A DNA stretch of 64,000 nucleotides from Apium graveolens (taxonomy: Eukaryota; Streptophyta; Magnoliopsida; Apiales; Apiaceae): assembly GCF_009905375.1 (NCBI RefSeq), contig NC_133652.1:120115797-120179796 (forward strand), written 5' to 3'. Position numbers and translations under genes: made by a program. The notes below the pieces were generated by a model that did not search any database, had not been told where the DNA came from, and saw only the letters and a list, made by a program, of their open reading frames with translations. This document shows positions 6,011-55,922 of this stretch, piece after piece (positions within the stretch are counted from its first letter, which is position 1; each line of letters opens with the position of its first letter).

Positions 6011-6180
6011 TGTCACGCCCCCAACTTAAACAGCAAATTAAATATAACTATTACAACATTTCTAAAAGAAGAATACACAACCAACTCCAAGACCTTACAG
6101 TTTAGGGTTTGGAACAACCCAACACTACCAACTATTATATCTGATTTTAAATACCGAGTCCTCACACAAACTATTATTAC

Positions 6181-6252
6181 TTATTCTACCTGAGCTCGAA
6201 CATAAGCATCAGCATCACAGGTCTTACGGGCAGTCTGCTTGAATCTAACCAT
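6181..6252 (-). CDS. Histone H3-tail-like mini-ORF in C 3' LTR
   Basis: This is a 23-codon ORF starting MVRFKQTARKT and ending ...YVRAQVE. Histone H3 starts MARTKQTARKS, so 8 of the first 10 residues match, including the exact KQTARK block holding K4 and K9. The ATG lies 9 nt after an 'acag' (minus strand), the same spacing as in the E and G LTRs. Three codons before the stop is CAG|GTAGAA, a good plant 5' splice-site match in phase 0. The copy in the 5' LTR (15685-15756) is identical. That it is translated, and that it acts as an H3 mimic, are inferences. It could instead be a chance short ORF kept only by LTR homogeneity, but homologous ORFs in E and G argue against that. Confidence 0.5.
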   Translation of the reverse strand: MVRFKQTARKTCDADAYVRAQVE

Positions 6253-6261
6253 AGCTGCTAG

Positions 6262-6305
6262 CTGTAATATCAGGGTAAAGCAAGAAGTGAGCCAAATGCT
6301 CAACA
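6262..6305 (-). promoter_or_regulatory. Conserved LTR block upstream of mini-ORF (C)
   Basis: On the minus strand it contains gagcatttggctcacttc then ttgctttaccctgatattac, ending in an AG 9 nt before the mini-ORF. The core ggctcactcttgcttt is shared with G (51531-51577) and E (42107-42152), although the surrounding LTR sequence is barely alignable. It could be a core promoter/initiator, or a branch point plus 3' splice site. Confidence 0.5.
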
Positions 6306-9300
6306 AGTGCTAACAGTACGATACAAAATATAAATCGAGATATAAATTAAAGAATGTCAATGGGAAGACATAATCTGAGATAACGAGAGATTAAACATTG
6401 GGTAATGGCATCATTTTTACTTGTATCAAAACAAATTTCAAAAAATCATGTCTTAATCAAAATCATTTTAGGACGCTACGGATTACAGCTGGTGATCAGC
6501 CGCGAAGTAATCCCGAAACTCGCTGGGTTCTAAAACATTAATGGGAATCCCTAGGCAACTTTTAAGCCTAATATAAGTGTGGAAAGGACTCGCGTCTCAG
6601 TCCAGATCCACCATTCAAAGAAAACATTTATCCCCCTTTGGGACTGAAAACCCACATTTTATTCATTTCAAAAAAAAAACTAATGCCGAATTAAGACAAA
6701 ATCTCTTTTTACAGTAAACATCTTTATCAAGGGATTATATATCAACTCGAAATACGGGAAATATGGTATTCAATCTCAGGGCCACGATTCACAAAACTAT
6801 ACTCTATTAAAGTAACTGAATGGTTTTCATATATCAAAGTTTGGACAAGGGAATTTAGTGAGGCTATTGGATATCATGAAGGGAAATGTCAAATTGGGCT
6901 TAAAGCAATGGTTTCTCATCAAGGTTCAAGTGCTGGATCTTCAAGGATGTAAGCTTCATGAATACTAAGGGTGTTAAGGTATGAAGATATAATTTTTAGC
7001 TCAGGATATATCAGAATTGTCAAGCTTTAGGATAGGAAAGAGGGGTATCAATTAATGAGGGATCACTTTGATAAGTATCTGACTTTCAGGGTTCAAGGTA
7101 TGGTTCTATAGGGGTTCAAGTATCAGGATGAGATATCAATACTTAGGAATCATCAGCATGTTAATCAAGAGAATCAACTAAGAGTGGTAACTACCCTTTC
7201 CTTTATCATGGCATTCAAATTAGTTTAGTATACTATCATGAATAAGACTTTTGAACTACTTGCAATACATACTCGAGGGTTCATGGCATTTCTATATGAT
7301 TCAAAGATAAACATAAGATACGCTTGACTTAATATATCAAATGACAGGGATAGTTGTAGCAATGTATGAATTATTAGCAGTAAATACGAAGGTCAAGTAG
7401 AATCACTTGCCTTGAGAAAGGCTGGTCTGGTCTAACTGGTAGGAGCAACTGGAGCTTCACTCGACCTTTATGGCAAGTTTTCCCTCGTCTCGAGATCCTA
7501 CATAAATAATAATCCTCATTATAATATATTCTCACTAACTTAACCTATTTACAACCCGAAATTAAACACGGATGGCACTTAGGCCTATATGCACCTAATT
7601 TTATATTCACTTTTAAATTACGAAAGTACACACATAGCCACATAATCACATATCATATATTAATACCAATAACACCATATATACCATAATGCAACACTAG
7701 GCTTGGATGATCTCGACTCACAACTTAAGTCACCTGGTCGCTAAACTAGACAAGGTCTTCTAATTTTGGCTTCCTAACTCGATGTGCCTTTCCTAAACTA
7801 TCCAAAACCTATTGACCCTCACTTGTGCCTTTTGCTCTACTAACCTTATACTATCTTACAACTATGATGGTTGACCTAATACTCACTTCTAAGTGTTCTA
7901 AAACTATGTGATAAGTGAAAGTGTTCACTGGTGCAAATTTCAGAATGACAACTATGGTTTCTTGAGTGCATTAGACACTCTTAAACTACAAGTTTTCCTT
8001 CACAAATTTTACACAAGACTCTCCTGACCTAAGGGCATCTCACAAACTTGATGTGGCTCAAGGGCCTGGCTTGGGCCTTTTTGGGCCTAAGCTAAAAGTC
8101 CAAGGTTCCCCTGTTTTTCTGGGCAGAAAACGCCCTGACTTGAATTAACTTGTGACACATGGTTCTAACTCATATCCTATGAACTATGGTTGGAAAAACT
8201 TCTCTGACACTCCCTCTAACTAAGGCCCAACAGGGCCTAATGAGGGCCTACCCATGACATGGCCAAATCTCCCTATTTCTAAGTTGCAACAAAACTGTCC
8301 CCTACTGGACAGATTTTGTTATTCTACTTGTGCACCTAACCAAATGACATGCAAACCTCCAACCAACACCTAAAACCTTTTATATACTCCCAATACTAAC
8401 TTCTGGTGGCTTGGGCCTCAAAGTGCACATCAATGACATGATCAAAACTCACTCTAAACCTCAGGGTTCTAAACTGATTTTCTGCAGAAACTATAACTCT
8501 TCTTTCTCCAAGGTTTTGACTTGACAAACTCAACTACCAACATCCCAATACTCAAACCAAGACTTAAACATGGTAATCTACTGAACTAAATCCCTTATTC
8601 TCAAAATAACCTTGGGTGAGATCATCCTTACCTAAGGTACAATTATGGCAAAACAAAAGAAACTACACTTCACAAATCACAAATCTTCATGCTTTTGAAA
8701 TAACAAGATATGCATTTTTATAAAAGATAACCATGAATTATTACCATGCAACAAGGAGCATAAATCAATATTAACACATTATTCCTACTGAAATTAAGGC
8801 TCACTAACAAAATCTTTCCAAATGATCAAAATCTCACAACATTCTAAGAGAAATCCACATGCATGCATGTCTTCGGGTTTTGCAAACCAAAACAACACAT
8901 TTTCTACATATATTCTATCATAAAATTGACATGAAAGCCTAACATAAGCTATACCTAGATGATCACTTAGCATGCAAAGAGTTTTATCAAATTTTCACCA
9001 CAAAATTCAAGTCATTATCACATAAACATGCAAAAATTGATTTAAGCAACAATAATAGTCTTAAGGACCATTCATTCGGCTCCCATATGGTGATGGCCGA
9101 ATGAAATGGATGGGAATGGCCATTTAATCATCAAGAGTTTCCCTCTCAAGACTTGGCACTTCTCCATTCCTTGTAGTCCTCTCAAAAATAACCCTAAACT
9201 GACAAGAATCAAGGTTGTACTTTGAGTTTTAACTAGAACCTTAACATGCAACTTCAAAACTTAAACTTTCTATTCAAAACTCTTTGAAATATGAATGATC

Positions 9301-10059
9301 ATGGTATGGGAAATAACATTTACTTGTATAAAGATTAGAAGCTTGGTTGAGGAATGAAGAAAAATGGGGAGGGGTGGTTCTTGGCTAAAAGCCGAGAGTG
9401 AGGGGGGAAGGAGGGCCGAGAGGAGGGAGAAGGGAGGGAGGAGAGAGTGAGGTGTGGGTGGAGTATGAAAATGATCATGACACTTTGCTTGTTTTATGGT
9501 ATTTGATTTGACAAAATTTGAGTGGAAAGGAGAATTGACAAGACTATCCATCCACTTATACTTGGTTCATTTTGCATGCAAGGGTGAAGAAGGAAATTGG
9601 CTAGAAAAATAAGAGTTAGTGGGGTTGGAATTGTCCTCTTTGTCCTTGAAAAGAATGAGAGGGTGGTTTGCATGCAAGGGCTTTCTTGTAATTTGCTAAA
9701 TATGACAACTAAAATTTATAATGATTTATTTTTATAAAATAAAATACAAGTTCAAAAATTATAAAATTTATACCATAAAATAACTTGGATTTTTAGAGAC
9801 TTTATAAAATCATTTTCAAAATTTGTGAACAAAATACCTTTTAAAAGAAAATTTTTCCAAGGCTTAGAATATTCCTTATAAATCAAAAATAAAGAAATTA
9901 AATAAACTCTTACTTTGAAAAATCATATACTACATAAAGCAAAGTTATAATACAGAAATTTTCACTCACACAAACGTACAATCATTGAATATATTTCATT
10001 CGGCTTTAATATTATACCAAATCCACAAATAATATTATACGAAAATACCGGTTGTAACA

Positions 10060-10093: not shown

Positions 10094-13085
10094 CTAAGAG
10101 AACAGATGAGGATACCGGGAACGCATAACAGACTCTAACTCCCAAGTCGATTCTTCGACCTTAGGGTTCCTCCAAAGCACTTTTACTAACTTTACTGACT
10201 TATTTCTAAGGCTTTTCTCTTGCCAGTCGAGTATTTTAACCGGTTGCTCCACAAATGATAGGTCTGCCTGAATTTCTACAGGTTCATATTCTATCACATG
10301 GCTAGCGTCAGGATTGTACTTCTTAAGCAACGACACATGGAACACATTATGCACATGCTGATACTGAGGTGGTAAGGCCAACTCGTAGGCCACATTTCCC
10401 ACTTGACTCAAAATCTCAAAAGGACCTATGTATCTAGGTGCTAACTTCCCTTTCTTGCCAAATCTCATCAACCCTTTTCTAGGTGACACCTTCAGCAACA
10501 CAGCTTCGCCAATTTGGAATTGAACATCATTACGCGCTGGATCCGTATACTTCCTCTGTCTATCTTGAGCAGCAAGCAACCTTTTTCTGAATTAACTTGA
10601 CCGAGTCATGCAACTGTTGTACCAATTCCGAGCCGAGAATTCTTCCTTCTCCTACTTCATCCCAACTTGTTGGTGATCTACATTTTCGCCCGTACAAAGC
10701 TTCGTATGGTGGCATGCCGATACTGGAATGATAGCTGTTGTTGTAAGAGAATTCAATCAACGGCAAATGGTCGTCCCAACTTCCTGCAAAATCGATTGCA
10801 CAACTGCGCAACATGTCTTCAATTGTTTGAATTATCCTTTCACTCTGGCCATCAGTGTGCGGGTGGTACGCCGTGCTCATATTCAACTTCGTGCCAAGAC
10901 ATTCCTGAAATTGCTTCCAGAATCTCGAGTTAAATCGGGGATCTCTGTCTGAAACTATTGATACGGGTACTCCATGCCTTAGTACGATTTTGCACACATA
11001 CAGATGAACCAACTTGTCCAATGACGACTTCTCGTTTATTGGAAGGAAATGCGCCGACTTCGTAAGACGATCAATTATAACCCATATTCCGTCATGCCCG
11101 GATTTCATTCGCGGTAGTCCTACTATAAAGTCCATAGCGATATTTTCCCATTTCCATTCTGGAATCTTCAGGGGTTGAATTAATCCGCTTGGTCGTTGAT
11201 GTTCTGCCTTCACTTTCTGACAAGTATAGCACTTCGCAACCCATTCTGCCACGTCTCGCTTCATATTTGGCCACCAAAAGTTCTTCTTTAAGTCTCGATA
11301 CATCTTGGTGCTTCCCGGGTGGATTGAAAATTTTGAATTGTGGGCTTCATGGAGGATCTCATTCTTTAATTCAGGTACACGAGGAATCCATATTCTGGAA
11401 GAGAACCTTAGTATCCCTTGCTCATCCCTTCGAGTATTAATCTCCTCTCCAGATAACTGGTTCTTCTCTTTCTCCATTACTTCTTCTTGACATTTCTTTA
11501 TCTTTTCTACTAGTGTTGGCTGAAAGGTCATTGCACGACAAACTTCCTCAACTTTTCCGCAAGCACAAAGTTCCAGTTCAAATCTCTCGATTTCTTCAGA
11601 TAAGTCTTTTGATGTTATCATCATATTTAGTCTCTCCTTCCTACTCAGAGCATCGGCCACTACATTCGCCTTTCCAGGATGGTAATTTATCGAACAGTCA
11701 TAGTCCTTGATCAATTCCAGCCATCTCCTCTGCCTCATATTGAGCTCTTTCTGAGTAAAAATGTACTTTAAACTCTTGTGATCCGTGTAGATTTCACACT
11801 TCTCTCCGTAGAGGTAATGTCTCCAAATCTTAAGTGCGAACACTATGGCAGCTAGTTCCAAGTCATGCGTCGGGTACTTTAACTCATGCGGTTTTAACTG
11901 TCTTGACGCATAAGCGATCACTTTACTGTGTTGCATCAACACACAACCCAAACCCTTATGTGAAGCGTCGCTGAATATTACAAAGTTCCCTTGATCATCT
12001 GGTAGTACTAACACTGGAGCTGTTACCAACTTCTGCTTCAACTCTTGAAAGCTATCCTCACATTATACACTCCATTCAAACTTTTGATTCTTTCTGGTTA
12101 ACTTGGTCAATGGCGTGGCGATTTTCGAAAAATCCTTGACAAACCTTCTGTAGTATCCTGCCAATCCTAGAAAACTTCGCACTTCCGTAGGAGTCTTTGG
12201 CCTCTCCCAACTAATAACTGCCTCAATCTTTGCCAGATCCACTTTAACTCCTTCATTTCCAATGACATGCCCCAAAAATTGAACTTCCTTTAACCAAAAC
12301 TCACATTTGGTAAACTTGGCATACAACTTCTCTTGCCGAAGTATCTCTAATGCTATCCAGAGGTGCTGCTTATGTTCTTCTTCCGACTTAGAATAAATAA
12401 AAATGTCATCATTGAATACCACGACAAATTTGTCCAAATACTTCTTAAATACTTGATTCATCAGATCCATAAATGCGGCCGGAGCATTGGTCAGTCCAAA
12501 CGGCATTACTAGGAATTCATAATGCCCATATCTGGTCCTGAATGCGATCTTGGGAATATCCTCTTCTTTGATCTTTAATTGATGGTATCCCGATCTCAAG
12601 TCAATCTTTGAAAAGCATTTTACTCCCTTCAACTGGTCAAAAAGGTCATCTATTCTTGGTAGCGGGTAGCGGTTCTTGATCGTTACCTTATTCAACTCCC
12701 GATAATCTATGCATAGTCGCATACTCCCATCTTTCTTCTTTACAAACAGAACAGGTGTTCCCCATGGCGACGTACTTGGTCGTATCACTCCTTTATCCAA
12801 CAATTCTTGCAGCTGGCTCGCCAACTCTTTCATTTCTGCTGGTGCCATCCTATATGGGGCCTTTGAAACTGGTTATGCACCTGGAACAAGGTTGATCTCG
12901 AACTCGATTTATCGATCTGGTGGTAAGCCTCGTAGTTCATCGGGAAACACATCCGGGAACTCGTTAACTACAGGGATATCTTCCATGATGGGGCTGCCTT
13001 TTTCCGAATCTACTACATAAGCTAGGAACGACTCACAACCTTTTCTAAGTAGCTTCTTAGCCTGAACAATTGTAAGAAATAGTTG
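10094..13085 (-). pseudogene. Element C pol: reverse transcriptase, RNase H, integrase, chromodomain
   Basis: The domain order is gypsy-type. Reverse transcriptase: [10 protein letters not shown] and MPFGLTNAP, with catalytic box F-N-D-D-I at 12405-12420, where the second position is unusual (D has F-I-D-D). RNase [15 protein letters not shown]. Integrase: zinc finger [18 protein letters not shown] ... CYTC, then the acidic triad in [17 protein letters not shown] and GQSERI. Chromodomain: KVLWRN ... ESTWELES near 10100-10180. Breaks: a frameshift near 13080, two TAA stops between 12849 and 13021, a TAA at 12060-12062, and a one-base gain in an A-run near 10585. The chromodomain would target integration to modified histone H3. 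Confidence 0.95.
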
Positions 13086-14707
13086 CTCTTGCCTCTGCCC
13101 TTAAATACTACCTTCTCTCCACTCTTTGTCTTTAAATACACTTTCTTGGTCTTACAATTAATCTGAGCGCTATTCTCTCCTAACCAGTCCATTCCTAAAA
13201 TTATATCAAACTCTCCCAACTTGAAGAGTATCAAGTCGGCTGAAAACTTATATCCCGAAATATCAATCTCACACTTTGGACAAAATTGATTCACAGGAAT
13301 CTTCTCTTGGTTCGCAATTACCACATTCACTACCTCACTCATAATCATTTTCTCACATTGAAGCTTATCAACAAAAGATTTTGATATGAAAGATCTTGTT
13401 GCTCCCGAATCAATCAATACTTTAGCTTTGATATTATTGAGTAAAAGTGTACCTGCTATCACCTCAGAATTCTGAACAGCATCCTTCATCTTCAGATCAA
13501 ATGTCCTTGCTGTTGCTTGCGGGGTTGGTGCGGGTGGTGGAGGTAATGCCAATACCTCAACTGGCATGCTTGCACTGGTACTTGCCACGTTCATTATAGC
13601 TTTGATTGGTACGGTTGCCTTGCACTCCCTAGCTATGTGTCCAGTCTTCCCACACTTGTAACACGTAACTCCTGGCTTCGGCATCTTGCACTCATTTGCC
13701 AAATGTCCCTTCTGATTGCACCTATAACATGTCATGCTCAGCTTATTACACACTCTGGGGTGCCTTCTTCCGCAGTGCTTGCATTCTGGCCTCTGGAACC
13801 TGTTTTCTCCAACTTGCCCTTGGCTTGCCTGATTGTTCCCCTTCGATTCTTGCCTTTTACCCAAATTTCCTTTCTTTTGAAAATTTCCGCCCTTCTGGAA
13901 TCCGATCCTCTTTACATTCCGATCTTGTGAACTTCCCACTTCAGACTTTTCTCCATAAAATGGAACCTTCCTCTTCTTGTTATCCCTCTCCTTCCTTGAC
14001 TGCATCCCATTATTCTCAATCAGAGCAGCTTTCTGTACTACTCCCGCATAAGTTTCAAGCTCAAACATAGCCACTCTATCTCTGATCCAAGGCTCCAATC
14101 CTTGCTGAAATTTCTTTGCTTTTTCCTCCTCAGTGCTGGTATACATTGTCACAAACCTTGACAATTCAGTGAACTTCTTCTCATATTCCAATACAGTCAT
14201 GTTCCCTTGCTTCAACTCAAGAAATTTAAGTTCCATCTGATTCTGCATGTACTTAGGGTAATACTTGTCCAGAAATAACTTCTTAAATCTCTCCCAAGAA
14301 ATCTGCTGAGTGACTTCCATAGCTTTTACTGATTCCCACCAATAGATGACTTCTCCCTTCAAGAAGTAAGTAGCATACGGCGTCTTCTGATCGTCTCCTA
14401 ACTGTACCAACTCAAAAGCCCTTTCCATCTCCTTGATCCATGTGTTAGCTATCACTGGATCAGTGGTATCATGAAATGCAGGTGAATTCACATTCTGAAA
14501 AGCCTTAAAAGTGACAATTTGTCTAGGTGGTACTGGTGGTTCAGGTGGTTGGTGTGGCTCACGGTTATCTTGGTTTTCAATTCATTGTTGAAGAGTTAGT
14601 TGTTGTTGAGCTATAGCATTGGTCTGCTGTTGCAAGGTTTCCAGTAATCGAAGAATGTTTGGGTCTGTGGTGGATGTGGTTGTTGGGTTCTTCTTTTTGG
14701 GAGGCAT
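13022..14707 (-). pseudogene. Element C gag-protease
   Basis: The likely start is the ATG at 14707 (MPPKKKN, matching MPPRRN in D). The reading frame has a TGA at 14582-14584 and is then open to 13022. The gag core is about 14440-13980 ([48 protein letters not shown]). A Lys-rich linker follows. Three Cys-rich knuckles lie near 13780-13630, among them CYRCNQKGHLANEC and CYKCGKTGHIAREC. An aspartic protease with [10 protein letters not shown] lies near 13400. A frameshift near 13085 separates it from reverse transcriptase. Gag packages the RNA; the protease would cut the polyprotein. Confidence 0.9.
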
Positions 14708-15019
14708 GATCCTGAAATAAGAGTTGTGTCAAAACAGATATGAATGATAAAATGATTCGAGGGTATCGCATGGCATTCTCATTTACATATGGGGTCAAGT
14801 TTCCAAATTAAGCAGATATGATGATAAAAACGTAAAATAACAGTTGAGAGCAAATGGAACAATAGCACATAATTATTGAAATTTTAAAGGTCACAATACA
14901 TAAGATTAGGACAAGGTCTGATTCTAGGAATAACAGGCTTATTTAAAGGAAACAACGGAAACAACTAGGGATTCCACAGAGTCTGATGGTACAACAACAT
15001 GAAAGGTAAATGGAAAGAA
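14708..15019 (-). other. Element C untranslated leader upstream of gag
   Basis: About 310 bp lie between the leader ORF and the gag ATG. I see no ORF with family features. The region likely contributes to the packaging signal. Confidence 0.5.
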
Positions 15020-15376
15020 CTAAGGCTCCACTCCATCTGAACGGGGATTGGTAGTCTTTTCCTCTCGAAGCGTCTTCACAATGCTCTGGAGCTCATCCGC
15101 CACCATCTGAATGACATACTGGCTGGTGCGGTCCTGGTGCGCTGGCATCTCCTCAAGCTTAGTATTGACGTACTGAACCAAGATCTCAAGTCTCGCAGTC
15201 ATCTACTCCTTGGGCTTCCCTTCATAGTTTCGGCTGTCCGGATACACGTTCTTCAGTCGGTCTATCAGTCGGTCGTACTTGCCCTGAAGCATGACGAACT
15301 CGCGCCTCAACTCAGCATACACTGTGAAAGCAATAGTGTCGTCCGACCCAGAGGATGACGAGGAATGCGCCCTTTG
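15020..15376 (-). CDS. Element C leader ORF (possible second exon), one in-frame TAG
   Basis: An open frame upstream of gag on the same strand, about 118 codons, with one TAG at 15203-15205. It begins, if spliced, right after a good acceptor (pyrimidine-rich ctcctcttattggttgtcag, AG at 15377-15378) with QRAHSSSSSGSDD. It continues with a heptad-like, coiled-coil-prone stretch (ELRREFVMLQGKYDRLIDRL) and a second amphipathic segment (LEILVQYVNTKLEEMPAHQD). Joining the phase-0 donor after codon 21 of the 5' LTR mini-ORF (exon end 15694) to this acceptor keeps the frame and removes 317 nt, including the LTR end and the primer-binding site. A comparable ORF lies at the same place in D. Function unknown. 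Confidence 0.5.
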
Positions 15377-15496
15377 CTGACAACCAATAAGAGGAGTATT
15401 AATAATAAATTTACTTATCCTACTCTCTCGCATATTATCTATAACCTACACACATATCCTATAACCTATTTGGGCTGTCCAGGGACTCTAAACCGT

Positions 15497-15510
15497 GGCT
15501 CTGATACAAA
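15497..15510 (-). other. Element C primer-binding site
   Basis: Plus strand ggctctgatacaaa is the complement of a methionine-tRNA primer site (usual form tggtatcagagc) with one change. It lies 4 bp inside the 5' LTR border at 15515. Confidence 0.85.
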
Positions 15511-15514
15511 AACC

Positions 15515-18500
15515 TGTCACGCCCCCAACTTAAACAGGAAATTAAATATAACTATTAAAACATTTTTAAAAGAAGAATACACAACCAACTCCAAGACCTT
15601 ACAGTTTAGGGTTTGGAACAGCCCAACACTACCAACTATTACATCTGATTTTAAATACCGAGTCCTCACACAAACTATTATTACTTATTCTACCTGAGCT
15701 CGAACATAAGCATCAGCATCACAGGTCTTACGGGCAGTCTGCTTGAATCTAACCATAGCTGCTAGCTGTAATATCAGGGTAAAGCAAGAAGTGAGCCAAA
15801 TGCTCAACAAGTGCTAACAGTACGATACAAAACATAAATCGAGATATAAATTAAAGAATGTCAATGGGAAGACATAATCTGAGATAACGAGAGATTAAAC
15901 ATTGGGTAATGGCATCATTTTTACTTGTATCAAAACAAATTTCAAAAAATCATGTCTTAATCAAAATCATTTTAGGACGCTACGGATTACAGCCGGTGAT
16001 CAGCCGCGAAGTAATCCCGAACCTCGCTGGGTTCTAAAACATTAATGGGAATCCCTAGGCAACTTTTAAGCCTAATATAAGTGTTGAAAGGACTCGCGTC
16101 TCAGTCCAGATCCACCATTCAAAGAAAACATTTATCCCCCTTTGGGACTGAAAACCCACATTTTATTCATTTCAAAAAATAAAAAACTGATGCCGAATTA
16201 AGACAAAATCTCTTTTTACAGTAAACATCTTTATCAAGGGATTATATATCAACTCGAAATACGGGAAATATGGTATTAAATCTCAGGGCCACGATTCACA
16301 AAACTATACTCTATTAAAGTAACTGAATGGTTTTCATATATCAAAGTTTGGACAAGGGAATTTAGTGAGGCTATTGGATATCATGAAGGGAAATGCTAAA
16401 TTGGGCTTAAAGCAATGGTTTCTCATCAAGGTTCAAGTGCTGCATCTTCAAGGATGTAAGCTTCATGAATACTAAGGGGGTTAAGGTACGAAGATATGAT
16501 TTTTAGCTCAGGATATATCAGAATTGTCAAGCTTTAGGATAGGAAAGAGGGGTATCAATCAATGAAGGATCACTTTGATAAGTATCTGACTTTCAGGGTT
16601 CAAGGTATGGTTCTATAGGGGTTCAAGTATCAGGATGAGATATCAATACTTAGGAATCATCAGCATGTTAATCAAGAGAATCAACTAAGAGTGGTAACTA
16701 CCCTTTCCTTTATCATGGCATTCAAATTAGTTTAGTATACTATCATGAATAAGACTTTTGAACTACTTGCAATACGTACTCGAGGGTTCATGGCATTTCT
16801 ATATGATTCAAAGATAAACGTAATATACGCTTGATTTAATATATCAAATGACAGGGATAGTTGTAGCAATGTATGAATTATTTGCAGTAAATACGAAGGT
16901 CAAGTTGAATCACTTGCCTTAAGAAAGGCTGGTCTGGTCTAACTGGTAGGAGCAACTGGAGCTTCACTCGACCTTTATGGCAAGTTTCCCCTCGTCTCGA
17001 GATCCTACATAAATAATAATCCTCATTATAATATATTCTCACTAACTTAACCTATTTAAAACCCGAAATTAAACATGGATGGCACTTAGGACTATATGCA
17101 CCTAATTTTATATTCACTTTTAAATTACGAAAGTACACACATAGCCACATAATCACATATCATATATTAATACCAATAACACCATATATACCATAATGCA
17201 ACACCAGGCTTGGATGATCTCGACTCACAACTTAAGTCACTTGGTCGCTAAACTAGACAAGGTCTTCTAATTTTGGCTTCCTATCTCGATGTGCCTTTCC
17301 TAAACTATCCAAAACTTATTGACCCTCACTTGTGCCTTTTGCTCTAATGACCTTATACTATCTTAAAACTATGGTGGTCAACCTAATACTCACTTCTAAG
17401 TGTTCTAAAACTATGTGATAAGTGAAAGTGCTCACTGGTGCAAATTTCAGAATGACAACTATGGTTTCTTGAGTGCACTGGACACTCTTAAACTACAAGT
17501 TTTCCTTCAAAACTTTTCCACAAGACTCTCCTGACCTAAGCCCATCTCACAAACTTGATTTGGCTCAAGGGCCTGACTTGGGCCTTCTTGGGCCTAACCT
17601 AAAAGTCCAAGGTTCCCCTGTTTTTCTGGGCAGAAAACGCCCTGACTTGAATTAACTTGTGACACATGGTTCTAACTCATATCCTATGAACTATGGTTGG
17701 AAAAACTTCTCTGACACTCCCTCTAACTAAGGCCCAACAGGGCCTAATAAGGGCCTACCCATGACATGATCTCCCGATTTCTAAGTTGCAACAAAACTGT
17801 CCCCTACTGGACAGATTTTGTTATTCTACTTGTGCACCAAACCAAATAACATGCAAACCTCCAACCAACACTTAAAACCTTTTATATACTCCCAATAATA
17901 ACTTATGGTGGCTTGGGCCTCAAAGTGCACATCAATGACATGATCAAAACTCACTCTAAACCTCAGGGTTCTAAACCGATTTTCTGCAAAAACTATAACT
18001 CTCCTTTCTCCAAGGTTTTGACTTGACAAACTCAACTACCAACATCCCAATACTCAAACCAAGACTTAAACATGGTAATCTACTGAACTAACTCCCTTAT
18101 TCTCAAAATAACCTTGGGTGAGATCATCCTTACCTAAGGTACAATTATGGCAAAACAAAAGAAACTACACTTCACAAATCACAAATCTTCATGCTTTTGA
18201 AACAACAAGATATGCATTTTTATAAAAGATAACCACGAATTATTACCATGCAACAAGGAGCATAAATCAATATTAACACATTATTCCTACTGAAATTAAG
18301 GCTCACTAACAAAATCTTTCCAAATGATCAAAATCTCACAACATTCTAAGAGAAATCCACATGCATGCATGTCTTCGGGTTTTGCAAACCAAACCAACAC
18401 ATTTTCTACATATATTCTATCATAAAATTGACATGCAAGCCTAACATAAGCTATACCTAGATGATCACTTAGCATGCAAAGAGTTTTATTAAATTTTCAC

Positions 18501-19399
18501 CACAAAATTCAAGTCATTATTACATAAACATGCAAAAATTGATTTAAGCAACAAGAATAGTCTTAAGGACCATTCATTCGGCTCCCATATGGTCATGGCC
18601 GAATGAAATGGATGGGAATGGCCATTTAATCATCAAGAGTTTCCCTCTCAATACGTAGCACTTCTCCATTCCTTGTAGTCCTCTAAAAAACAACCCTAAA
18701 CTCACAAGAATCAAGGTTGTACTTTGAGTTTCAACTAGAACCTTAACATGCAACTTCAAAACTTAAACTTTCTATTCAAAACTCTTTGAAATATGAATGA
18801 TCATGGTATAGGAAATAACATTTACTTGTATAAAGAGTAGACGCTTGGTTGAGGAATGAAGAAAAATGGGGAGGGGTGGTTCTCGGCTAAAAGCCGAGAG
18901 TGAGGGGGGAAGGAGGGCCGAGAGGAGGGAAAAGGCAGGGAGGAGAGAGTGAGGTGTGGGTGGAGTATGAAAATGATCATGACACTTTGCTTGTTTTATG
19001 GTATTTGATTTGACAAAATTTGAGTGGAAAGGAGAATTGACAAGACTATCCCTCCACTTATACTTGGTTCATTTTGCATGCAAGGGTGAAGAAGGAAATT
19101 GGCTAGAAAAATAAGAGTTAGTGGGGTTGGAATTGTCCTCTTTGTCCTTGAAAAGAATGAGAGGGTGGTTTGCATGCAAGGGCTTTCTTGTAATTTGCTA
19201 AATATGACAACTAAAATTTATAATGATTTATTTTTATAAAATAAAATACAAGTTCAAAAATTATAAAATTTATACCATAAAATAACTTGGATTTTTAGAG
19301 ACTTTATAAAATCATTTTCAAAATTTGTGAACAAAATACCTTTTAAAAGAAAAATTTTCCAAGGCTTAGAATATTACTTATAAATCAAAAATAAAGAAA
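15515..19399 (-). repeat. Element C 5' LTR, outer end deleted
   Basis: It is nearly identical to the 3' LTR 6011-9897 (positions 19391-19399 match 9889-9897). The outermost 162 bp (equivalent of 9898-10059, the U3 start) are absent and copia A ORF3 sequence follows at once. Losing the U3 end removes the LTR terminus needed for integration and perhaps promoter sequence. Confidence 0.95.
15685..15756 (-). CDS. Histone H3-tail-like mini-ORF in C 5' LTR
   Basis: This copy is identical to 6181-6252: MVRFKQTARKT at the start, donor-like CAG|GTAGAA with the exon ending at 15694. Being in the 5' LTR, it lies at the head of the expected genomic transcript, upstream of the primer-binding site and leader ORF. 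The A/V at position 2 would allow removal of the first Met, leaving VRFKQTARK against mature H3 ARTKQTARK. Translation is not shown. Confidence 0.5.
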   Translation of the reverse strand: MVRFKQTARKTCDADAYVRAQVE

Positions 19400-40782: not shown

Positions 40783-42554
40783 GAGATAGTTTTAAATATG
40801 ATTCAATTCCGGGATTAGCCGGATGCGAGAGATTTCAATTTTGTTAAACAAAGTACGTTCGCATAATATATATCGAGCGAACGATTGAGATTTGATTTTA
40901 TCAATATCTTTAATAAGTATTTGAATATTCATTTAAGGGATATCCTTATTTGATTAATTATTTTTTTAAATAACACTTAAAGGATTATTAAATATCCAGA
41001 AAATATTTAAAAATATATTACATAGATTATAAATTATTTCACTCTACTTAAAAATGTATTCAACTATTAAAAAAGTATTGATAGGGTATCAACTCCCATC
41101 TTGATTATTTATTTAATATTTATTAATTATTTAAACCTTATTTAAATATATTCTGAAACCCTAAATATTTAGTAAAAATATTTTTCGGACTTTTAAAAAT
41201 TATTTAAAAATAGACGTAGTTCCCGAAGGTACTTTATAAATTATTCAAACCTCAACGAAGGGATCAACCATCTGAAACTTATCAAAACCTCGGGGAACTT
41301 AGTCTAGAAGCATAAGAGTTTTGCTTCTTCACTCTAATAAAAAACAAGAAATCAATATTTATGTATTCCCCTGCTGTAGTTAGGGATTTGAATATGATTT
41401 CAAGTTCAAAACTCCGACAACTCCCAAGGATCAATTGAATTAAAGATTGACGAACAAATCATCTGAATGAAGGTCAACTCCTAATGACCTATTCATTTAA
41501 AAAGGATTTTAAAATGAAAGTTATCATTGTTGTTTATCTTAGGACTGGAATGTGGCCTGCCCGGTTAAAAGATACTATAGGGCAGCAACCATGAGAGCAG
41601 TGGCGCATTGTATGGTTATGTGGACCGCGTGTGACCATTGAGTTTCAGACTTGCACTGTAATATGATAAAAGCCATGTAGTGTCTTGATAAGCTCAAAGA
41701 TGGCTAGGTTAATTATCGCACGTCGGTTGACACCTTCTACTAGTAGAGAAAGTTTGCGTATACAGCTGATCACCGCATACATAGTTTATTCCAGTATAGT
41801 CCCTTTCCTTCCATTTTGGAAAAAAATGTTGTACAATTTACAACGGAAGGCCGATAAGGATGAATTTTAAATCATAACATATATGATGTGAATATCAACT
41901 CCGGCTTATAATCCTGGTTCAAGTAAAATCTTGAAGTTTGGAGAAGAGATAAATACAAGTATAGAGGGGATTTAATGCTATAGTTGATTTCGAGAATATA
42001 ATAAATTTGACAAGCACATAAATTTTCAAGAGTCTTTGAAAATACAAAGTTCAACTATTGGTTTTCCTTATTCTCACATACTAATATATGGATATGCATA
42101 CCTTGCTGAGCTATAGTGCTCACTCTTGCTTTTATATATCATATCATAACAGATTACCAGCATGGCTCAGACCAGGACTACTATCCGCAAGCGGGTAGGA
42201 GATGCTCATGAGTATGGTAGGTTGTTTGTGCGCCAGCCCCGTCAGGTAGACGAGTAGAGTTGGTTTCCCTTTTGTAAACTATGATCTAAGAACTAAAACA
42301 TTTGTGACCCGAGTCAGTCTCATGTAGAGCTGCCTTCGGTGTTCACCCTTTTGGGATAATTACATTTGGTTTGTAATGAACTTAACTAGCACGTGGATTA
42401 TTTTAGTAATGTTTCTGAGCATATAACCTGTGCGTGTGTGAGTTATGAATGAAAAGGTCAAGTGATATTAGTAAAATTAGTTTAATCAAATTTTGGTAAA
42501 TAATAAGTGAGCGTAACAACCCGAATTCACGACCTTGGATTTGGGGGTGTTACA
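40783..42554 (+). mobile_element. Element E 3' LTR, second part
   Basis: It continues the LTR broken at ~2452 and ends ...ggatttgggggtgttaca, the same style of end as G (gggggtgttaca). Shared landmarks with G include ctactagtagagaaag (41736-41752, G 51052) and the gctcactcttgctttt block. It carries the mini-ORF at 42162-42257. Confidence 0.85.
42162..42257 (+). CDS. H3-tail-like mini-ORF in E LTR
   Basis: 31 codons starting MAQTRTTIRKRVGDA and ending VRQPRQVDE. It shares M-A, T at position 4, basic residue at 5, T at 7 and R-K at 9-10 with histone H3, and the ends Y..VR.Q..E with the C mini-ORF. The ATG is 9 nt after the AG of 'aacag' (42151-42152). A donor-like CAG|GTAGAC in phase 0 precedes the stop by three codons. 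Same LTR position (about 300-390 bp before the LTR end) as in G. Weaker resemblance to H3 than in C; homology to the other mini-ORFs is the main support. Confidence 0.45.
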   Translation: MAQTRTTIRKRVGDAHEYGRLFVRQPRQVDE

Positions 42555-48086: not shown

Positions 48087-51000
48087 TGTAATAACCCCCA
48101 AAATTTTTAACTTTTTGTAACCCTTGTGAATAGTGTTTTTGCTGAATGAGAAAACTTTTCATGCCACACTATGTAGGGGTTCTATTATGGATATTCTGAG
48201 ATTTTATTAGTACTCTATATGGTATATGAGTGTATGTAAAGATCGTCAGAATCCAATTTCCGAACACTTTGGTTTTTCCCGGAAATCCACTAGATACGGA
48301 AAGAATTGAGTATAAGGTAGCAGGATAAAAAGGATTTAAATTAAAGGATTATAATAGAGGATCATAAAAAGGAATATAATATATTGAGAAAGGTTAAGGG
48401 AACCTAAGTAATAAGATCCCGGGTATGATCCTTCAAACGATAAACGAAAACGAAAGTTAAGCGAACCGTATAGCAGATCATCGGTCATTAGGCAAACAAT
48501 TAGGAAGTTAATCAAAGGGGATTAGAGAGAGAGTGATGTCACCCAACCAATGAGAGGAGGACAAAGAGGGAAGGATGACATCACAGCATGACATAGGCAT
48601 GACATTGGAAGGAAGGAGATGTGGTGGCTTTTTAACCACACAAAATCAAGGGCAACTAGGTAATTTACTAAAACAAACATAAAATCAAACCAACCAAGCC
48701 AAGCAAATCATTTTTCATCAAAATCAAAAAAGAAACCAAGGCATTGTTCTTCATGCTCTCGGCTTTTTGACATTTTAAAGGCAAGGAAATTCAAAACTCA
48801 AGATCCAAGCCTCCTAAATTGGTAAGATAATTCCCTAATCATCTTTATGCTTAGTTAGGGCTATATAATGAGTTTAAGCCATCAATTCCTTCTCAATCTC
48901 CTTCATTTAATCAATGAAGAAGACAATGAATAGTGTTTTCAAGTTTTTAACTTGAATTTTTTTTTCTTGATTTCCTTGAAGATCCAAGCATTCCTAAGAC
49001 TTCTCAAAGCTTCTTAAGGCTTCCTAGCTCCTCCCACCACTTCGAGGAAGGTATATCATCTCCAAACCCTAGATTCCTATGTATTATAAGATGATTTTGA
49101 TTAGTAGGGTGATATTGTAGCTTAATGTTTGTGATTTAGAGTTTGGGATTGAAATGGTATTGAAATGGAATGGTAAATGTTGTTGTTTTGGTTAAAAGAT
49201 TGTAGTATAGTTAAATTCAAGCTTAGGCATAAGTATAAATGTTAAAATTGAATTGGTTGGGGCTGATATGATGTGATAAGGATGGATGTTGGTTGTATGT
49301 TTGATTTGAGGTTGAATTGGGTTGGTTTTGAATGGTTTTAAATTGGGAAATCGCGTAAACATAGCCGTCGTAACGTCCGATTTTCTTTGGACTGCTTTTG
49401 TGCATAACATTAGGACCCGAGAAACCCCTGCTAGATTTTGACCATTGCCATTTCTAGATAGCTCGTGTTACGAGCTTCGTTTTGATATGTAGTTCGTTCG
49501 ATTCCGATGCACGGTTTAGGAGAAACGACCGTTTCAAGTAATGGCGTTTCGCGAACGAAACTTTTCCCCTCGCCTTACTTTGAAACATAGGTTAAAGACC
49601 AAAAAGGGTTAATTAATGTATGAAACATTTATGGTAAGTGTGTTAGGCAGTTAGTAAGACACTCGCGAAGGAATCGCCTTAAAACTCGTAAAGGTTAAAT
49701 TATTAAAAATGGTGGAGCCGAGGGTACTCGAGTGACTTAAGAGAATCAATAAGCGCAAAACAAGCGTTAGAGTCTAAGTTAGTTAAAGTATAGACTTACA
49801 AGTGACTTTGGTTTAATTCCAACTTACTTGTTGTTTATAGGTTACCAAACTCATCCCGAGCCTTTTATCACCCCAAGTCGCTCAGGCAAGTTTTCTATCC
49901 GTTATACTGTTGTTGTGATGTATTGTGTATATGCATGATCTTGCGTTAAATGCATATTTGTTATAGCAGATTCTTGCGATATATTGTAGCATGTTATATG
50001 GTACATATGCATGCCTGTTTCGTATTCTTGCCATATATATATCTGTTGGTTCAGTTGATAATACCTATGCTAGAGGTTAGCAGTATTTTGCATATACCCT
50101 TATTATAAGGACCCAAAAGGTGAAAACATTTTCTAAAACCGGGAGTCGAGGATCCCGAGTAGATTTTGTATATATGTATATATGTATATATTCATATATA
50201 TATATGGTTATAGTTTTCAAAACTATTAATCGAATAAGGGTTATTCGATAACTTTATATTATTTATTGAATATTATTTCGAATATTATTCGAGGGCTTAT
50301 GACTCTTTTATATTATTATGGGATATTACTTGGATATTCATTTGAGGATGTATGACTCCTTTATTTTATGAATATTATTTATAATATTCATTCGAGGTAT
50401 TATGACTCCGCTTATTACTGCATTATATTCTTTATTTTATTAAAGAATAAGGTGTCAATAATCAAACTTATTTTCGATTATTTAAATAAAGATAGTACTT
50501 TCGTATAAGTATATCTTTGGTTATTTAATACTCGTTTCAAGTATAAGTTTTAATACTTCTACTTCAATTATTTTTATAAAGATTATTCTTTATGGGAATA
50601 TTATTTAAATAATAATATTCAGACATTTTTTAAATATACTGGGGACTGATTTACTTCATTAAATCAGCTTTACTCCAAACACTCTTTAAAGTGTTTTCGA
50701 GTCTTCAAAATGATTTTTAAAAGTTAGAGCGGATCCCAAAACTCATTTTTATATTTAAGATCTTCCTTTTTAAGGGGATTTAAATACTCGCTCAAAACCT
50801 GAGAGATCCGGCTCTGTGGTGTATTTTATATTCGCAACAAGGTTGCAGTTTTGGTAAATGAATTGATTACTTACCCAACGTTCGGGAAGTAAGTCCATCT
50901 ATTGAGTCGGCATAAGCAACATGGGCTCAGTGGGCGTCCATGATAGTGTAAGTGGCTCAGTGGGAGTCCATCAAATGCATAAGTGGCTGAGTGGCAGTCC

Positions 51001-51979
51001 AGCATAAGGTCCTATTGAGACCAGGGTGATGACCAGTGGGGAATTCGTCCATCTACTAGTAGAAAAGGTTACTTATTGGTATCCTTGCCTGATCAGCAAG
51101 ATACCTGGTTTATGCCAAAATTCTTTTCCTTTCCCAAAATTTATTGGATGTTTCAAACTCTGTTCATACTTTACATGACAGAGGTTTTCAGGAAATGTAT
51201 AAAGAAGATGTATATGTGGATATATATATATCAGAACTTAATGAAGTATATCATAACTTCATTTTCTTTAATAATATTTCAAAGATTTAATCTATTCAAA
51301 TCTTGTCTTGTAGTCTCATCTATGTGATGAACTGTTGAAAGCTCATTATACTTTGAACAGTGGTAGTTCAAGTAGCTTTATAAATGATATAAATGTAGTG
51401 AAGTATCTGGTAACTTCATCCCTTGTTTTTATTTATATCTAGTAAGTAATTATCTTACACATGATAAAAGATTCTAGTAAGTATCCATTTAGATACTTAT
51501 ATTATTGTTATCACTATATATTATCTTGCGAGCTGTAAGGCTCACTCTTGCTTTATTTCTTCATCACACAACAACAGTTAGGAAAGATGGCCAGACTCCA
51601 GCAGACCCAGCGCAAGCGCGTGGGAAGCGTCCCGCGTCTTTCCGATGATGTTGTAGCTGCTATAGCTGCAGAGGTAGATCTATTGGTAGACCAGGCACTC
51701 TACTTTTGAGAATCAAATTATGTATAATTATAACTTGTGGCAGATAATGGCAATTAACTATAAATTATCAAGTAATCATTTTGGGTTGTAATAACTTTTA
51801 AATTGTGGATTCAAAGACTTGTACTTATTTCAATTTCATCTCTGAGACTATAACGGGTTGTGGTGTGTGTTAGTGTGGGGTCACAGCATAAGGTTATTTA
51901 TTATTAATTAAGTGAAGTGATATTGTGGAAAGAAAGACCGTGACGACCCGGATCCCCGACCCCGGATCTGGGGGTGTTA
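48087..51979 (+). repeat. G left arm: gypsy LTR, lacks terminal CA
   Basis: 3893 bp. It carries a three-unit ~30 bp tandem repeat (ggctcagtgggagtcca-like) at 50921-51002, the conserved ctcactcttgctttat block at 51541-51556, and the mini-ORF at 51587-51709. The last two LTR bases (ca) are missing at the centre. The ~83-codon ORF at 51076-51327 is also in the other arm only because the arms are copies. Confidence 0.93.
51587..51709 (+). CDS. H3-tail-like mini-ORF in G left arm
   Basis: 40 codons starting MARLQQTQRKRVGS; M-A-R, Q-T and R-K match histone H3 at the same positions (7 of 10). The ATG is 9 nt after the AG of 'aacaacag'. A phase-0 donor-like GCAGAG|GTAGAT lies after codon 29. The right-arm copy has changes R-to-H, R-to-C and S-to-P, two of them at CpG sites. 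It is clearly related to the E mini-ORF (RKRVG). Confidence 0.45.
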   Translation: MARLQQTQRKRVGSVPRLSDDVVAAIAAEVDLLVDQALYF

Positions 51980-51990
51980 GATACCATTTC
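51980..51990. other. Centre of palindrome G: primer-binding-site remnant
   Basis: gataccatttc; on the minus strand gaaatggtatc. The minus strand reads LTR end gtgttaca, then gaaa, then tggtatc, which is the first 7 nt of a methionine-tRNA primer site, and then the other arm. So the right arm is a 5' LTR with the start of its primer-binding site joined to an inverted LTR. Confidence 0.85.
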
Positions 51991-52736
51991 TGTAACACCC
52001 CCAGATCCGGGGTCGGGGATCCGGGTCGTCACGGTCTTTCTTTCCACAATATCACTTCACTTAATTAATAATAAATAACCTTATACTGTGACCCCACACT
52101 AACACACACCACAACCCGTTATAGTCTCAGAGATGAAATTGAAATAAGTACAAGTCTTTGAATCCACAATTTAAAAGTTATTACAACCCAAAATGATTAC
52201 TTGATAATTTACAGTTAATTGCCATTATCTGCCACAAGTTATAATTATACATAATTTGATTCTCAAAAGTAGAGTGCCTGGTCTACCAATAGATCTACCT
52301 CTGCAGCTATAGCAGCTACAACATCATCGGGAAGACATGGGACGCTTCCCACATGCTTGCGCTGGGTCTGCTGGAGTCTGGCCATCTTTCCTAACTGTTG
52401 TTATGTGATGAAGAAATAAAGCAAGAGTGAGCCTTACAGCTCGCAAGATAATATATAGTGATAACAATAATATAAGTATCTAAATGGATACTTACTAGAA
52501 TCTTTTATCATGTGTAAGATAATTACTTACTAGATATAAGTAAAAACAAGGGATGAAGTTACCAGATACTTCACTACACTTATATCATTTATAAAGCTAC
52601 TTGAACTACCACTGTTCAAAGTATAATGAGCTTTCAACAGTTCATCACATAGATGAGACTACAAGACAAGATTTGAATAGATTAAATCTTTGAAATATTA
52701 TTAAAGGAAATGAAGTTATGATATACTTCATTAAGT

Positions 52737-52788
<52 letters not shown>

Positions 52789-55700
52789 ACATATACATCT
52801 TCTTTATACATTTCCTGAAAACCTCTGTCATGTAAAGTATGAACAGAATTTGAAACATCCAATAAATTTTGGGAAAGGAAAAGAATTTTGGCATAAACCA
52901 GGTATCTTGTTGATCAGGCAAGGATACCAATAAGTAACCTTTTCTACTAGTAGATGGACGAATTCCCCACTGGTCATCACCCTGGTCTCAATAGGACCTT
53001 ATGCTGGACTGCCACTCAGCCACTTATGCATTTGATGGACTCCCCTGAGCCACTTACACTATCATGGACGCCCACTGAGCCCATGTTGCTTATGCCGACT
53101 CAATAGATGGACTTACTTCCCGAACGTTGGGTAAGTAATCAATTCATTTACCAAAACTGCAACCTTGTTGCGAATATAAAATACACCACAGAGCCGGATC
53201 TCTCAGGTTTTGAGCGAGTATTTAAATCCCCTTAAAAAGGAAGATCTTAAATATAAAAATGAGTTTTGGGATCCGCTCTAACTTTTAAAAATCATTTTGA
53301 AGACTCGAAAACACTTTAAAGAGTGTTTGGAGTAAAGCTGATTTAATGAAGTAAATCAGTCCCCAGTATATTTAGAAAATGTCTGAATATTATTATTTAA
53401 ATAATATTCCCATAAAGAATAATCTGTATAAAAATAATTGAAGTAGAAGTATTAAAACTTATACTTGAAACGAGTATTAAATAACCAAAGATATACTTAT
53501 AAGAAAGTACTATCTTTATTTGAATAATCGAAAATAGGTTTGATTATTGACACCTTATTCTTTAATAAAATAAAGAATATAATGCAGTAATAAGCGGAGT
53601 CATAATACCTCGAATGAATATTATAAATAATATTCATAAAATAAAGGAGTCATACATCCTCAAATGAATATCCAAGTAATATCCCATAATAATATAAAAG
53701 AGTCATAAGCCCTCGAATAATATTCGAAATAATATTCAATAAATAATATAAAGTTATCGAATAACCCTTATTCGATTAATAGTTTTGAAAACTATAACCA
53801 TATATATATATGAATATATATATATATATATACATATATACAAAATCTACTCGGGATCCTCGACTCCCGGTTTTAGAAAATGTTTTCACCTTTTGGGTCC
53901 TTATAATAAAAGTATATGCAAAATACTGCTAACCTCTAGTATAGGTATTATCAACTGAACCAACAGATATATATATGGCAAGAATACGAAACAGGCATGC
54001 ATATGTACCATATAACATGCTACAATATATCGCAAGAATCTGCTATAACAAATATGCATTTAACGCAAGATCATGCATATACACAATACATCACAACAAC
54101 AGTATAACGGATAGAAAACTTGCCTGAGCGACTTGGGGTGATAAATGGCTCGGGACGAGTTTGGTAACCTATAAACAACAAGTAAGTTGGAATTAAACCA
54201 AAGTCACTTGTAAGTCTATACTTTAACTAACTTAGACTCTAACGCTTGTTTTGTGCTTATTGATTCTCTTAAGTCACTTGAGTACCCTCGGCTCCACCAT
54301 TTTTAATAATTTAACCTTTACGAGTTTTAAGGCGATTCCTTCGCGAGTGTCTTACTAACTGCCTAACACACTTACCATAAATGTTTCATACATTAATTAA
54401 CCCTTTTTGGTCTTTAACCTATGTTTCAAAATAAGGCGAGGGGAAAAGTTTCGTTCGCGAAACGCCGTTACTTGAAACGGTCGTTTCTCCTAAACCGTGC
54501 ATCGGAATCGAACGAATTACACATCAAAACGAAGCTCGTAACACGGGCTATCTAGACATGGAAATGGTCAAAATCTAGCAGGGGGTTCTCGGGTCCTAAT
54601 GTTATGCACAAAAGCAGTCCAAAGAAAATCGGACGTTACGACGGCTATGTTTACGCGATTTCCCAATTTAAAACCATTCAAAACCAACCCAATTCAACCT
54701 CAAATCAAACATAAAACCAACATCCATCCTTATCACATCATATCAGCCCCAACCAATTCAATTTTAACATTCATACTTATGCCTAAGCTTGAATTTAACT
54801 ATACTACAATCTTTTAACCAAAACAACAACATTTACCATTCCATTTCAATACCATTTCAATCCCAAACTCTAAATCACAAACATTAAGCTACAATATCAC
54901 CCTACTAATCAAAATCATCTTATAATACATAGGAATCTAGGGTTTGGAGATGATATACCTTCCTCGAAGTGGTGGGAGGAGCTAGGAAGCCTTAAGAAGC
55001 TTTGAGAAGTCTTAGGAATGCTTGGATCTTCAAGGAAATCAAGAAAAAAAAATTCATGTTAAAAACTTGAAAACACTATTCATTGTCTTCTTCATTGATT
55101 AAATGAAGGAGATTGAGAAGGAATTGATGGCTTAAACTCATGATATAGCCCTAAATAAGCATAAAGATGATTAGGGAATTATCTTACCAATTTAGGAGGC
55201 TTGGATCTTGAGTTTTGAATTTCCTTGCCTTTAAAATGTCAAAAAGCCGAGAGCATGAAGAACAATGCCTTGGTTTCTTTTTTGATTTTGATGAAAAATG
55301 ATTTGCTTGGCTTGGTTGGTTTGATTTTGTGTTTGTTTTAGTAAATTACCTAGTTGCCCTTGATTTTGTGTGGTTAAAAAGCCACCACATCTCCTTCCTT
55401 CCCATGTCATGCCTATGTCATGCTGTGATGTCATCCTTCCCTCTTTGTCCTCCTCTCATTGGTTGGGTGACATCACTCTCTCTCTAATCCCTTTTGATTA
55501 ACTTCCTAATTGTTTGCCTATTGACCGCTGATCTGCTATACGGTTCGCTTAACTTTCGTTTTCGTTTATCGTTTGAAGGATCATACCCGGGATCTTATTA
55601 CTTAGGTTCCCTTAACCTTTCTCAATACATTATATTCCTTTTTATGATCCTCTATTATAATCCTTTAATTTAAATCCTTTTTATCCTGCTACCTTATACT

Positions 55701-55922
55701 CAATTCTTTCCGTATCTAGTGTATTTCCGGGAAAAACCAAAGTGTTCGGAAATTGGATTCTGACGATCTTTACATACACTCATATACCATATAGAGTACT
55801 AATAAAATCTCAGAATATCCATAATAGAACCCCTACATAGTATGGCATGAAAAGTTTTCTCATTCAGCAAAAACACTATTCACAAGGGTTACAAAAAGTT
55901 GAAAATTTTGGGGGTTATTACA
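51991..55922 (-). repeat. G right arm: inverted gypsy LTR, complete
   Basis: 3932 bp with both ends tg...ca (minus strand). It is longer than the left arm mainly through a (TA)n expansion at about 52741-52788 where the left arm has only a short run at 51228-51240, and more TA near 53815-53835. Tandem repeat copy at 53001-53083. Confidence 0.93.
52263..52385 (-). CDS. H3-tail-like mini-ORF in G right arm
   Basis: Starts MARLQQTQRKHVGS; 40 codons, open throughout. Copy of 51587-51709 with three amino-acid changes in the region after the H3-like part and the first ten residues unchanged. Confidence 0.45.
   Translation of the reverse strand: MARLQQTQRKHVGSVPCLPDDVVAAIAAEVDLLVDQALYF

Follow-up and report, generated by a model that had tools for sequence, protein, structure and literature searches.

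A histone H3-like mini-ORF in the long terminal repeats of celery chromoviruses is probably the first coding exon of a spliced accessory gene

The long terminal repeats (LTRs) of a retrotransposon in celery (Apium graveolens) encode a short open reading frame (ORF) whose product resembles the tail of histone H3 (MARTKQTARKSTG), which raises the question of what such a sequence is doing in an LTR. The locus lies in a stretch of 64,000 nucleotides (contig NC_133652.1 of assembly GCF_009905375.1, positions 120,115,797 to 120,179,796), hereafter the window, which holds the elements called here C, D, E and G. C lies on the minus strand between two LTRs (6011-9897 and 15515-19399) that are 97.6% identical, and the ORFs of C and D match the Pfam families Retrotrans_gag, RVP_2, RVT_1, RT_RNaseH and Integrase_H2C2 in Ty3/gypsy order, split over several ORFs. 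A first-pass annotation of this DNA had reported a mini-ORF starting MVRFKQTARKT in the LTR of C, and we found it on the minus strand at 15756-15685 (MVRFKQTARKTCDADAYVRAQVE, followed by a stop), with a second copy at 6252-6181 in the other LTR. The relatives that it had placed in E (42162, plus strand) and G (51587, plus strand, and again 52385, minus strand) were also recovered, and an AG does stand exactly 9 nt upstream of the ATG in every C, E and G copy of the window. The mini-ORF is thus confirmed as a sequence feature, but rather than as a stand-alone ORF it is better taken as the minus-strand exon 15765-15694 of a larger accessory gene, so that its final codons (VE and the stop) would be intron.

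Judging from the sequence, celery chromoviruses probably have a two-exon accessory gene, a spliced 5'aORF, and the H3-like mini-ORF is its first coding exon. Exon 1 would reside in the LTR, splicing would remove the LTR end together with the primer binding site (PBS), and exon 1 would be joined in phase to an exon 2 located between the PBS and gag, giving a protein with a basic H3-like N-terminal tail and a partly acidic, largely helical body. The anatomy is established in C and G, with intact copies, and in E and a related family, E2, described below, an acceptor of this kind is present in the matching phase. The features of the window on which this reading is built are the following.

15694..15765, minus strand: exon 1 of C in the 5' LTR, 9 nt of leader and 63 nt of coding sequence (MVRFKQTARKTCDADAYVRAQ), with AG before it and GT (15693) after it.
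15377..15693, minus strand: proposed intron of C, 317 nt, with the LTR end (near 15515), a PBS-like TTTGTATCAGAGC and an untranslated leader.
15023..15376, minus strand: exon 2 of C, 118 codons, stop at 15022-15020; one stop codon, at 15205-15203, interrupts the frame in this copy.
14707..14711, minus strand: start of C gag, first base of the ATG at 14707, 4 nt past an AG acceptor; gag begins MPPKKK.
6190..6261, minus strand: copy of C exon 1 in the 3' LTR.
42153..42245, plus strand: exon 1 of E (MAQTRTTIRKRVGDAHEYGRLFVRQPRQ); donor GT at 42246.
51578..51673, plus strand: exon 1 of G in the left LTR (MARLQQTQRKRVGSVPRLSDDVVAAIAAE); donor GT at 51674.
52299..52394, minus strand: exon 1 of G in the right, inverted LTR.

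Exon 1 has one layout in C, E and G, namely AG, 9 nt, ATG, 21-29 codons and CAG or GAG/GTAGA (the slash marks the splice boundary). In C, where it lies about 240 nt upstream of the LTR 3' end, 21 codons are followed by the donor CAG/GTAGAA, the top-scoring donor in 16100-14650, and exon 2 opens past the LTR end and PBS at TTGTCAG/CAA in the same phase. Copies were taken from the 3.33 Gb genome; first-look candidates numbered 3332 for C, 1103 for G and 1559 for E, and in each case the best 40 were scored. Out of 39 copies of C examined, 15 passed a filter for the PBS and acceptor flank; among these exon 1 is open in 14, the GT donor is present in all 15 and the TCAG acceptor was located in 13, seven of which have exon 2 open over 118 codons. 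At least two further C copies with an open exon 2 (L032 and L037) failed that filter.

The exons of E and G, somewhat less than 400 nt upstream of the LTR 3' end, terminate at CAG/GTAGAC after 28 codons and at GAG/GTAGAT after 29 codons, respectively. Exon 2 of G begins past the LTR end and PBS at TGTGTAG/GCG and runs for 245 codons in the same phase, ahead of gag. Exon 1 of G is open at 29 of 30 loci (L073 carries a stop), and exon 2, located at seven of the nine loci tried, is open over its 245 codons in four of these seven. The search with E returned 30 loci, of which 11 belong to E, 18 to E2 (a family about 81-83% identical to E) and one was dropped because the match begins past the ATG. 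Downstream of the E LTR end in the window no PBS was seen; among the 11 E/E2 loci with a PBS within 500 nt, the acceptor, TTGTAG/GTACCC or GAACCC, was located in six (the script halted at a different TAG in four and found no anchor in one), and L087 differs at the base after TAG. From these six acceptors a frame in the phase of exon 1 stays open for 166, 44, 26, 111, 192 and 22 codons, and by eye its start (EYERAHDETLL or AYEREHDEALL) is like that of G exon 2 (FEREHDEALL). Donor and acceptor are kept in phase in several families (C, G and E/E2), with several sites scoring middling, and a same-strand ORF after the 5' LTR and PBS is found in C, D and G, where it extends up to gag, and in E/E2, where it is seen after the PBS. 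The gag ATG lies 4 nt past an AG both in C (TTATTTCAG/GATCATG) and in the G element L077 (TTATTATCAG/AATCATG), which suggests that one leader may be spliced alternatively. Given that C gag has its own MPPKKK start at 14707, the idea that the H3-like peptide is the gag N-terminus was dropped.

Annotated proteins contain these junctions. Searches with exon 2 retained 8 proteins of 19 candidates for C and 8 of 3249 for G, and a search with the first 45 residues of one G match retained 39 of 42. One protein, AgCh_013390 of Apium graveolens, reads KQTARKTCDANAYVRAQ followed by QRAHSSSSSG, exactly the C junction that had been proposed beforehand. For G, 41 proteins carry exon 1, and 36 of them exit at or beside the proposed donor: 29 leave the unspliced reading directly after residue 29 and seven keep the next Val before departing (the other five read on). 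G exon 1 is joined to G exon 2 in four celery models (P0014-P0017), and in four models, from three genes, that have upstream exons the junction coincides with the AG that lies 9 nt ahead of the ATG. Two of the G exon 1 proteins are isoforms X2 and X3 of RefSeq LOC141687104.

The comparison between E and E2 reveals purifying selection on exon 1. Over 11 x 18 copies (198 pairs, not independent of each other), the proportions of nonsynonymous (pN) and synonymous (pS) differences are 0.092 and 0.635, with a ratio of nonsynonymous to synonymous divergence (dN/dS) of 0.069. Within the families the ratio is 0.78 (E) and 0.75 (E2), as expected of dead copies, so that the within-family comparison cannot decide on selection. 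Divergence between E and E2 at the three codon positions of the exon is 0.124, 0.121 and 0.434, against 0.28-0.34 in the flanks, and the third-position excess was matched in none of 20000 shuffles; since flanks read as codons gave no usable pair for a dN/dS control, the divergence of the aligned flanks by position modulo 3 was used instead. In the E/E2 alignment 24 gap columns lie downstream of the exon and none within it, the 9 leader and 9 donor nucleotides have no majority difference, and a stop within exon 1 occurs in a single copy of each family (of 11 for E and 18 for E2). The first-pass annotation held that the likeness would be chance if the mini-ORF were lost from other family members or changed freely; it is instead retained in other copies and families and constrained between E and E2, and E2, a family absent from that annotation, carries ART--TARK. 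In addition, when windows spanning the exon and its immediate surroundings (about 105 nt) are compared, C aligns with E and with G with z values of 5.8 and 4.7 relative to shuffles, compared with -0.3 to 1.6 for the flanks. A spliced and selected LTR exon is therefore likely.

Several observations weigh against this reading. With regard to splicing, the sites were scored with a rough typed-in weight table, on which the donors of G and E rank 7th and 3rd; among acceptors, that of G exon 2 is 12th and the AG preceding exon 1 is 11th in C, 10th in E and below the 14 listed in G. The gene models follow GT/AG signals, may be computed and need not reflect transcripts, and all named protein sources are one species, celery. 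Exon 2 of C can be reached unspliced: an in-frame ATG lies 19 codons ahead of it, with the frame open in 12 of 13 copies, and the models P0001, P0007 and P0008 begin at that ATG; exon 2 of G has an internal Met, used as the start by P0009-P0013. With regard to selection, five of six E/E2 flank windows also diverge most in the third alignment class, at 1.3-1.6 times the other classes, compared with 3.5 times in the exon; variation in the exon equals that of the flanks within G and is slightly lower, without indels, within C. The best local C-E or C-G alignment over 1.1 kb did not exceed shuffles and lay off the exon, many element copies are broken, and a phmmer search of the chains in the Protein Data Bank (PDB) with the C, E and G exon peptides gave no matches at E<=10. 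Finally, the reverse transcriptase (RT) of D is as near to that of C as the RT of G is (81%), yet no H3-like LTR exon was found in D by the window scan or in the D frames, and such an exon in D was rejected.

The gene product would be a nuclear accessory protein made from a spliced mRNA. AlphaFold models of exon 2 alone have three helices with low confidence (mean predicted local distance difference test, pLDDT, of 59 for a copy related to C and 62 for G); a Foldseek search of viral proteins with the low-confidence G model gave 21 matches, none at E<=0.001, and a Pfam search with C exon 2 gave no families. Exon 2 of C and exon 2 of G have no significant similarity (best E 0.60) in elements whose RT is 81% identical, which indicates that the tail is conserved better than the body. 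We infer the Tekay label for the celery elements from three features: the ORF ahead of gag, a PBS of Met type and the chromodomain, the last of these a weak match in C.

10103..10237, minus strand: chromodomain-like integrase tail of C (Pfam Chromo, E=0.0059, 16.9 bits against a curated cut-off of 25.1).

In the passages of the published work on Tekay 5'aORFs that bear on this point (PMC11728184), the ORF is reported in 500 of 523 sunflower group-2 elements, with a product predicted to be nuclear and a function called unknown, and the sunflower and grass proteins have no amino-acid similarity. The celery gene occupies the same site, from the 5' LTR to gag, as the 5'aORF of sunflower Tekay 13-2, maize Tekay, sorghum Sb7 and rice Retrosat-2, which likewise encodes an accessory protein, partly disordered with helical stretches (PMC11728184). 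It would differ in having its first exon in the LTR, an intron over the LTR end and PBS, and an H3-like N-terminus, none of which is described in those passages; neither "splic-" nor "intron" occurs in the main text of that paper. Other plant LTR elements (Ogre, EVADE and BARE1) also splice to separate mRNAs, but the consulted passages describe this within gag-pol (PMC12786077, PMC6317226), whereas splicing of the celery intron would remove the LTR end and PBS and exon 1 is LTR-encoded. A 2019 survey set a minimum of 250 codons for extra ORFs (PMC6317226), a limit that would miss the genes of C and G. Among the literature matches listed, none described an H3-like tail or a spliced 5'aORF exon encoded in the LTR. 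An LTR exon spliced across the PBS would separate the accessory mRNA from the reverse-transcribable genome, a layout not described for plants in these literature passages.

As to the role of the tail, the main rival to H3 mimicry, a reading with a little under an even chance, is that it would be a basic nuclear-localisation or RNA-binding segment and the protein a regulator that exports or packages unspliced genomic RNA, the H3 likeness being incidental. Retroviral Rev is a regulatory protein of this kind, made from a spliced mRNA of an LTR element. The RKR cluster of E, E2 and G is consistent with this role, as are the nuclear prediction and helical stretches of the 5'aORF proteins of sunflower and other Tekay elements (PMC11728184). 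With a helical protein encoded by a spliced mRNA and a genome left unspliced, the arrangement would also resemble Cer1 of C. elegans, whose regulatory protein CERV is likewise the product of a spliced mRNA and is required for export of the genomic RNA (PMC10309623); exons 1-3 of CERV are in the gag frame, whereas the celery gene precedes gag. The conservation of the uncharged T6, and also of A7 in C, E and E2, argues against a merely basic tail.

It is plausible, though less likely than not, that the tail is a true H3 mimic, of the kind known from influenza NS1 and G9a, and would engage H3 readers or writers; the first-pass annotation had also named the element's own integrase as a possible partner. 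After removal of the Met it would read ARTRTTARK, VRFKQTARK or ARLQQTQRK (or ARLKQTQRK), with a Thr6-x-Arg8-Lys9 that would be recognised or methylated as H3K9 is and so link the protein to chromatin, to silencing factors of the host or to the chromodomain of the element itself. Counted over residues 1-10 of H3 (ARTKQTARKS), identity is 7 for C, 6 for G (7 in a K4 variant, MARLKQTQRKRVG, present in P0015 and P0022) and 5 for the window copy of E. Among the ATG frames of the window two have 7 matches (C, both LTRs), two have 6 (G, both arms) and three have 5, these being E once and an unrelated MLCTKAVQRKS twice (both arms of the G palindrome). Sixty simulated 64 kb windows (second-order Markov) gave four frames with 5 matches and none above, and shuffles of the peptides' own residues reached the observed identity in 24 of 200000 trials for C, 173 for G and 3114 for E, and the summed 18 of 30 in none; H3 was picked after the fact, so these figures are not clean probabilities. 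E2 was found after the H3 hypothesis and provides an unplanned further match: it reads MARTRTTARKR, and its commonest residues A1, R2, T3, T6, A7, R8 and K9 agree with H3 at 7 of 10 positions.

The tails built from the commonest residues are MARTRTTARKRVG (E2), MAQTRTTARKRVG (E), MARLQQTQRKRVG (G) and MVRFKQTARKTCD (C), and Thr6, Arg8 and Lys9 are common to all four families. T6 is kept in 10 of 11 E and all 18 E2 copies, R8 in 9 and 16, and K9 in all of both; A7 is present in 13 of the E2 copies and in 8 of those of E, where the Ile7 is a change of the window copy, and R2 in 10 E2 copies, with Gln in the other 8. The resemblance to H3 and to the NS1 and G9a mimics consists of a short N-terminal run with R2 (C, G and most E2), T6, R8 and K9. 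On the other hand K4 is replaced by Arg in most E/E2 copies and by Gln in 39 of 41 G proteins, and S10 by Arg in most tails and Thr in C, so that this is not a copy of the full tail; short basic motifs have other origins, the exon peptides lack PDB matches, as stated above, and the low-confidence helical models of the body do not indicate a histone fold. H3 residues are thus held at the matching distance from the N-terminus under selection, K4 and S10 excepted. Retention of the uncharged T6 and A7 favours mimicry, and the absence of K4 and S10 confines it to the context of K9, where a T6-x-R8-K9 core mostly without K4 and S10 might provide a K9-type mark that S10 phosphorylation could not switch. 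Two papers describe type II chromodomains as lacking an identified partner (PMC6317226, PMC12786077). A further proposal, less likely than not, is that an H3K9-type mimic, as the N-terminus of the spliced accessory protein whose exon 1 is carried in the LTR, might occupy or recruit the host H3K9 machinery or be the missing ligand of the element's own chromodomain; the link to the chromodomain is speculative. A selected H3-like tail on a 5'aORF protein would connect the two questions left by those papers and by the 5'aORF work, that of the chromodomain partner and that of 5'aORF function.

That exon 1 is a mere regulatory upstream ORF or leader, exon 2 being translated without it, is improbable: in-frame ATGs do occur before exon 2 in C and inside it in G, and the unspliced C mini-ORF closes after 23 codons, but the amino-acid constraint seen when E is compared with E2, the AG and GT borders, and an exon 1 that is in phase 0 with exon 2 in C, G and E/E2 speak against it. 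A chance resemblance in non-coding LTR, suggested by the post hoc choice of H3 and the unrelated window peptide with 5 of 10 matches, was rejected as very improbable on the simulated windows, the residue shuffles, the exon-window alignments and the E2 match, and it is contradicted by the codon-position pattern of divergence between E and E2.

Beside the spliced accessory gene, some further features of these elements were noted. The pre-gag ORF of D (30548-29300, minus strand) starts at an ATG of its own (MADSF), contains one stop and is helix-like in its second half. The G copy of the window lies in an inverted palindrome (48087-55922) in which two G-family LTRs stand tail to tail, with arms of about 3.9 kb and 97.7% identity; near its junction (51980-52000) the left LTR end passes into the reverse complement of the PBS edge, and the whole looks like an autointegration product. 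One G-family copy of exon 2 (L074:502-1131) has a duplicated acidic start, and the number of acidic repeat units varies among G copies. About 60 to 25 nt upstream of exon 1 in C, E and G there is a block resembling TTGCTGAGC-GCTCACTCTTGCTTT that contains an inverted repeat (GAGC/GCTC) and may be a core promoter or a signal for processing, and a similar block is found in the D LTR; from -60 to -10, E and E2 have differences at 3 of the 51 sites, a lower divergence than in the exon. Lastly, many celery models (P0018-P0034 and P0036-P0054) splice the G LTR exon onto unrelated exons. The LTR may there provide host transcripts with a portable coding exon, or it may mislead gene prediction; in the former case the many LTR copies (the first-look candidates counted above) could supply host genes with a ready-made coding exon.
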